Source: Aromatoleum diolicum
Lineage (GTDB): Bacteria; Pseudomonadota; Gammaproteobacteria; Burkholderiales; Rhodocyclaceae
NCBI RefSeq assembly: GCF_012910955.1
Contig: NZ_WTVQ01000001.1
Span: forward strand, 1 to 64,000
DNA: 64,000 nucleotides
Direction: 5' to 3'
The notes under the pieces: model-generated
Database searches by the model: none
Seen by the model: only the letters and a program-made list of their open reading frames with translations
Told to the model about the DNA's origin: nothing
Shown: piece by piece, positions 16,730 to 16,908 of the stretch
Numbering within the stretch: the first letter of the stretch is position 1
Layout: the number at the start of each line of letters is the position of its first letter
Position numbers and translations under genes: made by a program

Positions 16730-16758
16730 AGTATATGACTAGAAACATCCGGTAACGA
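16730..16758 (-). promoter_or_regulatory. Candidate hemB promoter
   Basis: On the minus strand TATACT lies at 16730-16735, with a weak -35 (TCGTTA) 17 bp upstream at 16753-16758. This leaves a short leader before the hemB ATG. The same base pairs also hold a plus-strand TATATG (16732-16737), 17 bp after TTCAAT (16709-16714), which could serve a divergent RNA. Confidence 0.35.
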
Positions 16759-16802
16759 AATCAACGGGGAACTTCCCGGGAGGGCATCAACTCTTATTTT
16801 CC

Positions 16803-16908
16803 AGATGGTGATGAGCCATCTCCCGCTTCACCTCCCTGAGCGGGTGCCTTAATCCCGTTAAGGCGTTCGACCCCGGGCTTTATCCCCTTTAGCCCGGGGT
16901 TTTTTATT
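16803..16908 (+). ncRNA. Candidate small RNA with four hairpins and anti-SD loop
   Basis: A plus-strand element between two minus-strand genes, so it cannot be the end of an mRNA from either. It holds four consecutive perfect hairpins: 16803-16808/16816-16821; 16822-16827/16839-16844, whose 11-nt loop contains CACCTCC; 16847-16852/16858-16863 with loop TCCCG; and 16871-16879/16891-16899 with a CCCC-containing loop, followed by a T-rich tail to 16910. C-rich loops complementary to the Shine-Dalgarno sequence are known in some Hfq-binding sRNAs of other proteobacteria. The 5' end is unknown; it may reach back to about 16744. The tail overlaps the engB stop codon. Confidence 0.6.

Follow-up and report, generated by a model that had tools for sequence, protein, structure and literature searches.

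What is transcribed from the plus strand of the gap between hemB and engB in Aromatoleum diolicum, where both genes are read from the minus strand, what could switch such a transcript on, and on what could it act? The gap lies in a 64,000-nt stretch of contig NZ_WTVQ01000001.1 (the window), for which an earlier inspection of the letters, here called the sequence-only reading, had proposed a plus-strand small RNA. Both flanking genes were confirmed on the minus strand, as hemB (ALAD domain) and a gene for an engB-like GTPase (MMR_HSR1 domain), and the four perfect hairpins described along the plus strand, including an intrinsic terminator with its T tract, are all present in the sequence (Table 1).

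Identity, structure and extent of the RNA

The RNA is a member of the catalogued anti-hemB family (RF02837, ncS04), which the sequence-only reading had not recognised as a described one. In the Rfam 15 scan the model, named "Burkholderia RNA 7 (anti-hemB)", scores 76.1 bits on the window (cut-off 49.5) and is matched over its whole length (positions 1–81 of 81); this is the single match in the genome, and the gene order hemB-RNA-engB is also present in the window. The proposal of a small RNA is borne out by this match and by the relative ncS04 of Burkholderia cenocepacia, a mapped transcript (PMC5688073, PMC4603805). Elsewhere in the window, a cobalamin riboswitch (RF00174; 36989-37193, plus strand, 103.3 bits) stands at the start of an ORF (37187-37993) whose product looks by eye like a BluB-type nitroreductase.

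The fold of 16744-16915 has a z-score of -3.98, and 0 of 200 dinucleotide shuffles were equally stable. Conserved and covarying stems, a check that the sequence-only reading had proposed, are present in the relatives. The set used for swapping right arms between sequences was reduced from 163 loci to 158 with the required loop motif, then to 116 after an identity filter and to 112 after removal of L041, L046, L052 and L060; because the loop motif was required for entry, this set is uninformative on loop conservation. In it, hairpin 1 has 6/6 pairs in 86 of 112 sequences, whereas 300 right-arm swaps gave 35.7 on average and never more than 46; its arms form 35 distinct pairs. The signal of hairpin 3 is weaker, with 6/6 pairs in 90 of 112 and a swap mean of 67.5 (maximum 75, 50 swaps). 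RNAalifold, applied to an alignment (A1) of 40 beta- and gammaproteobacterial sequences from which true ErsA was left out, recovered 13 pairs, 12 of them with two-sided change, all in hairpin 2 and the terminator. Hairpins 1 and 3 align badly in A1, so the support for hairpin 1 is the swap test. The terminator scan reported nothing at the locus, which is uninformative because it was limited to loops of up to 8 nt and the terminator loop has 11. The C-rich loops had been read correctly, loop 2 being TTCACCTCCCTGA, of the anti-Shine-Dalgarno kind, with TCCCG and CCCC in loops 3 and 4.

The transcript most likely starts at 16802-16803 and is about 103 nt long, judging from the spacing to the -10 element, which predicts 103–104 nt compared with the 105 nt mapped for ncS04. 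With the start set 105 nt upstream of the U-tract end in five loci, four of them from Burkholderia, the gap between TATGAT and the start was 6 nt in four loci and 8 nt in the other (L108), which is a usual distance between a -10 element and the start. With this start and length, hairpin 1 would be inside the transcript although it is absent from the Rfam model. For the same reason, the RNA of about 160 nt from about 16744 that had been put forward should most likely be shortened. The TTCAAT-17-TATATG promoter assigned to it was rejected, as TATATG occurs in the window alone among the 10 genus loci listed (window included) and the sigma-70 promoter scan found no site on either strand in 16000-17600.

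Table 1. Coordinates of the features at the hemB-engB gap of the window.
Feature	Position	Strand	Basis or remark
hemB, porphobilinogen synthase, divergent neighbour	15691..16707	-	Pfam ALAD, E 3.9e-137
-35 element GGAACTT of a sigma-E (RpoE, ECF) type promoter	16768..16774	+	pattern search; conserved upstream of relatives
-10 element TCTTA of the same sigma-E type promoter, 17-nt spacer	16792..16796	+	pattern search
Predicted small RNA transcript, ~103 nt	16802..16905	+	start inferred from -10 spacing; ncS04 has 105 nt
Hairpin 1, AGATGG/CCATCT, covarying, outside the Rfam model	16803..16821	+	sequence; swap test
RF02837 anti-hemB match	16819..16907	+	covariance model scan
Hairpin 2, CCCGC / loop TTCACCTCCCTGA / GCGGG	16822..16844	+	loop 16827-16839, anti-Shine-Dalgarno
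Hairpin 3, loop TCCCG	16846..16864	+	sequence, fold, swap test
Intrinsic terminator, hairpin 16871-16899 with CCCC in loop, TTTTTT 16900-16905	16871..16905	+	abuts engB stop codon
engB (yihA), GTP-binding protein gene, convergent neighbour	16904..17599	-	Pfam MMR_HSR1, E 6.3e-17

Promoter motif and its distribution

A conserved GGAACTT/TCNNA pair lies just upstream of the RNA, as is expected of sigma-E-dependent small RNAs. GGAACTT and TCTNA recur upstream of family members, with a variable spacer sequence between them. This motif resembles the consensus of RpoE-like sigma factors, from which we infer that the RNA may depend on sigma-E. Scored as GGAACTT-N14..19-TCTNA (maximum 11), it reaches at least 10 in 44 of 58 upstream regions of loci from the order, compared with 0.36% of 5800 shuffles, and is perfect in 27 of 58, compared with 0 of 5800, a significance that is overstated because the family members are related. 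These 58 loci include two second matches of genomes already counted (L060 and L061) and one weak match (L059). The spacer is 16 or 17 nt in 43 of the 53 loci scoring at least 9, and five of the 58 score lower, three of them without any site. Outside the order, the 40 best matches of the class were taken, one per genome, at E up to 6.0e-6 and with flanks of up to 1.5 kb; under a slightly wider score, in which TGAACTT and TCA are also allowed, 34 of these 40 gammaproteobacterial loci reach at least 10/11, compared with 0.5% of shuffles.

By itself the motif predicts little, because its genome-wide occurrence is at the chance rate: the A. diolicum genome contains 3 sites of the strict pattern, and the reversed pattern gave 4 and 3. 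A sigma-E regulon drawn from the strict genome-wide pattern was rejected on the same ground. One RpoE is encoded above the cut-off in this genome (352.9 bits). Upstream of rpoE, TGAACTA-N16-TCT is found in 17 of 17 genus genomes (L209, L214-L229), its -35 beginning 110–112 bp before the start codon, and this site scores only 8/11; among 13 loci outside the genus, a similar site occurs in L240, and the other 12 gave no result as no start codon was located. A TATACT box lies closer to rpoE than this site. Moreover, a second perfect sigma-E-like site of the A. diolicum genome (L062 1501-1529; C33:21315-21343) stands directly before prkA, encoding a PrkA kinase, and 11 other genus genomes have look-alikes among the listed sites, known there from the sites alone. 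From other bacteria, near-perfect matches to GGAACTTTT / GTCAAA are reported for micA and rybB (PMC1804206), and Bordetella SigE transcribes the sigma-E promoter rpoHP3 of E. coli (PMC3490749), while the meningococcal sigma-E uses a different -35, which counts against the sigma-E reading (PMC2893595).

The distribution of the motif is not uniform in the family. Exact matches to hairpin 2 were found in at least 119 named stretches, and among the 80 loci listed from them, TATATSATA is present in all 24 titled Burkholderia, Paraburkholderia, Caballeronia, Trinickia, Pandoraea or Pararobbsia, where the sigma-E regular expression [GT]GAACT[TA]-N15-18-TCNNA is found in 0 of 24. The other 56, which include two bins titled only "Burkholderiaceae bacterium", have TATATSATA in none and the sigma-E expression in 23 (1 of 4000 shuffles for each); the remaining 33 have more degenerate sigma-E sites or none. 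Of the 80 loci together, 31 reach a motif score of at least 10, a further 30 score 9 and the other 19 fall below that. An exact betaproteobacterial hairpin-2 match was also seen in a metagenome bin titled Klebsiella pneumoniae (L130), which is perhaps mislabelled. A sigma-70-like -10 thus appears to replace the sigma-E type promoter in Burkholderia and its sister genera, which fits the flat expression of ncS04.

These counts also bear on a rival explanation, in which the same family is read by the housekeeping sigma factor and is constitutive in the window as in Burkholderia, GGAACTT being a bystander or the site of another ECF sigma factor. The 24 loci with TATATSATA and without the sigma-E expression, the flat expression of ncS04 (PMC5688073) and four weaker matches of the RpoE model in the A. 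diolicum genome besides RpoE agree with it; however, TATATSATA is absent from the window as it is from the 56 other named loci, and most of the order's members that were searched have GGAACTT at a constant spacing, so we regard this explanation as unlikely. A sigma-E promoter, in turn, would provide an immediately testable regulator, and its loss would explain why the one studied member, from Burkholderia, is expressed flatly.

Loop 2 and candidate targets

The sequence CCTCCCTGA occurs in 54 of the 58 order loci, which were found by covariance model, and in the 40 gammaproteobacterial loci CTCCCT occurs in 36 and CTCCCTGA in only 21; the loop is thus partly conserved between the sets, with the reservation that these counts are biased because both sets were chosen by a covariance model that favours the loop. 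There are 17 CAGGGAGG-N3..10-ATG sites in the A. diolicum genome, and the reversed pattern has 3. Eleven of the 17 precede an ORF of at least 100 aa, and 4 of these 11 look exported or envelope-like by eye, too few for a claim of enrichment; judged in the same way, the products are mixed, with exported-looking proteins, an adenylate kinase and a dehydrogenase among them. In a search of six genomes, 10 to 67 such sites were found per genome.

We consider it probable that the window encodes a sigma-E-controlled, Hfq-dependent RNA of the RF02837 family, with its own promoter, four hairpins and a conserved loop-2 seed by which mRNAs are repressed in trans. Upon envelope stress, sigma-E would transcribe the RNA from this promoter, the RNA would fold into its four hairpins, and transcription would end at the terminator that abuts the engB stop codon. 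Hfq would bind at the U tail, and loop 2 (UUCACCUCCCUGA) would serve as an anti-Shine-Dalgarno seed conserved in the family, its CCUCCC covering ribosome-binding sites of the AGGGAGG type in trans on putative targets. A set of mRNAs could in this way be translationally repressed upon envelope stress, as by MicA and RybB in enterobacteria. In Xanthomonas, the C-rich loops of sX13 can repress mRNAs with G-rich sites (PMC3771888).

Neighbouring genes, relatives and known systems

The family name suggests a cis-acting antisense RNA to hemB, and 51 of the 58 order loci do have hemB as divergent neighbour (52 have engB, 48 have hemB divergent together with engB convergent, 3 have neither). However, the predicted RNA starts upstream of hemB, about 95 nt from its start codon, and heads away from the gene, and in the 40 loci of other orders hemB was found in none within the fetched flanks of up to 1.5 kb, whereas engB and/or polA was found in 36. 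A TATACT box seen by eye on the minus strand (16730-16735) would place the start of the hemB mRNA near 16723, which leaves about 80 nt between it and the RNA; the promoter scan reported no site on this strand either. The antisense role was rejected on the start, the heading and the 40 loci, and is very improbable; hemB is probably a mere neighbour. That the locus is only a bidirectional or leftover terminator of engB, without a functional RNA, is hardly credible: the hairpin does touch the engB stop codon, but its U tract follows on the plus strand only, it is accompanied by three further hairpins as well as by a promoter motif and a conserved loop, and the transcript of the B. cenocepacia relative has been mapped (PMC4603805).

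The family also extends into other gammaproteobacterial orders. Matches to RF02837 above the cut-off were found in 53 of 61 genomes in the search of relatives, in 245 of 399 genomes of the order and in 7 of 143 genomes of the class, A. diolicum being included each time and two of the seven (G000 and G084) belonging to the order. At E up to 0.001 the model matches 69 of the 143 class genomes but also 3 of 14 control genomes, so an independent test of the weak matches was needed. In the 40 gammaproteobacterial loci the EngB protein of the window finds EngB in 30, at 46–59% identity, and in 27 of these the gene and the RNA converge, as they do in the window; PolA is present in 27, and neither gene in 4. 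In L334, L343 and L347 the RNA lies between the two genes in the opposite orientation. Tandem copies beside engB were seen in L326 (1501-1800, minus strand; two) and L333 (1501-1608 and 1814-1883, plus strand; two, the second weak with E 0.0062).

The models of other families overlap with these loci. RF01719 (ErsA) matches 10 of 274 class genomes, one of them above the cut-off, and on 8 of the 10 loci (L361-L365, L367-L369) RF02837 matches the same bases; outside true ErsA (L360), RF01719 reaches only E 0.0008 to 0.07, and RF02837 is weak too in L362, L365 and L368 (E 0.03 to 0.15). In L361 (1087-1853, minus strand) four tandem copies of the RNA lie between polA and engB and are matched, in part weakly, by the models of three Rfam families: RF02837 on all four (E 1.3e-6 to 6.5e-5), RF02232 (sX13) on all four, one well (E 3.1e-6) and the others at 0.06 to 0.12, and RF01719 on two. 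In L361, L328 and L346 the RF02232 and RF02837 matches coincide, the former always under its cut-off. Furthermore, a model built from alignment A1 (R1), whose E-values are rough, finds ErsA in L360 at E 4.4e-7 and 13 left-out gammaproteobacterial loci, originally found with RF02837, at E up to 6.7e-10; on 20 loci fetched for other reasons its best match is an RF02278 RNA at E 0.0036, and it gives no match to E. coli spf (L359) at E up to 10. These comparisons make common descent of anti-hemB with the gammaproteobacterial polA-engB RNAs well supported and with ErsA and sX13 likely, whereas the link to Spot 42 is positional only, and homology to it was rejected as not supported by sequence.

In the accessible parts of the literature searched, which left most subscription journals outside, anti-hemB is catalogued without function or regulator, and no link to sigma-E, ErsA, sX13 or the polA-engB locus was found. 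A sigma-E type promoter that is lost in Burkholderia and its sister genera, and the link to the polA-engB RNAs, would be additions to that literature.

The nearest known system is ncS04, that is, anti-hemB of B. cenocepacia, listed with 105 nt, a 3' end determined by RACE and dRNA-Seq, and a Northern blot (PMC5688073, Table 1), with no significant change in any of seven conditions (Table 2 there), and with the gene orientation <- -> <- and co-purification with Hfq (PMC4603805, Table 4); anti-hemB also stands in a table of known RNAs of B. pseudomallei (PMC3521395). The window RNA shares with it sequence and structure above the cut-off, gene order and orientation, and a length of about 105 nt, and differs in the promoter, sigma-70-like in Burkholderia and sigma-E type in the window; the RF02837 model, moreover, is without hairpin 1. 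CU-rich loops against ribosome-binding sites are also known from the double-hairpin 'toxic' sRNAs of RF02278 and from S17 (PMC5688073, PMC11722255). RF02278 scores 19.3 bits on the window against a cut-off of 50, and R1 finds its loci only at E 0.0036 to 0.05. Three RF02278 loci, all above the cut-off, lie elsewhere in the A. diolicum genome (L031, L032, L033).

MicA and RybB, which are Hfq dependent, differ from the window RNA in sequence and locus, and the envelope targets of the window RNA are putative. Both of these small RNAs have conserved sigma-E promoters, and their action is on omp mRNAs (PMC1804206). RF02232 and RF00021 are not among the nine matches to the window at E up to 1. Spot 42 (RF00021, spf) is CRP-controlled and has no sequence support as a relative. 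It lies between polA and yihA/engB, convergent with yihA, as seen in the sequence and in PMC3295665; in the accessible part of PMC5688073 it is mentioned solely to illustrate accumulation during nutrient stress. The RNA sX13 of Xanthomonas has C-rich loops, as does the window RNA, and lies downstream of polA, a place that its authors compared with those of Spot 42 and alpha-r7; its loops repress mRNAs with G-rich sites near the start, and it differs from the window RNA in being reported as Hfq independent (PMC3771888). ErsA of Pseudomonas occupies the polA-engB gap, is driven by sigma-22 and needs Hfq for one reporter (PMC8575079). It shares C-rich loops with the window RNA and has TGAACTT-N-GTCATA upstream, but not the CTCCCTGA loop; the window has engB but hemB in place of polA, and RF01719 scores 17.7 bits there against a cut-off of 50.

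We lean, with moderate confidence, to the assumption that anti-hemB, ErsA, sX13 and many uncatalogued RNAs form one ancient family that travels with engB through the Betaproteobacteria and other Gammaproteobacteria. Its ancestor would have had a sigma-E promoter and a CCUCCCUGA-like loop against ribosome-binding sites, and the family would accordingly be the general small RNA of envelope stress in these groups; Burkholderia and its sister genera might later have rewired it to constitutive control, the Pseudomonas and Xanthomonas branches might have diverged in loop sequence, and the enterobacterial Spot 42 could descend from it with strong divergence or have taken its place at this locus; the name anti-hemB would then be owed to a chance neighbour. 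If anti-hemB, ErsA and sX13 are one family, the literature on biofilm and metabolism in Pseudomonas and that on virulence in Xanthomonas would concern branches that stem from a single ancestral regulator, and what is known of targets and loops could be transferred among the three.
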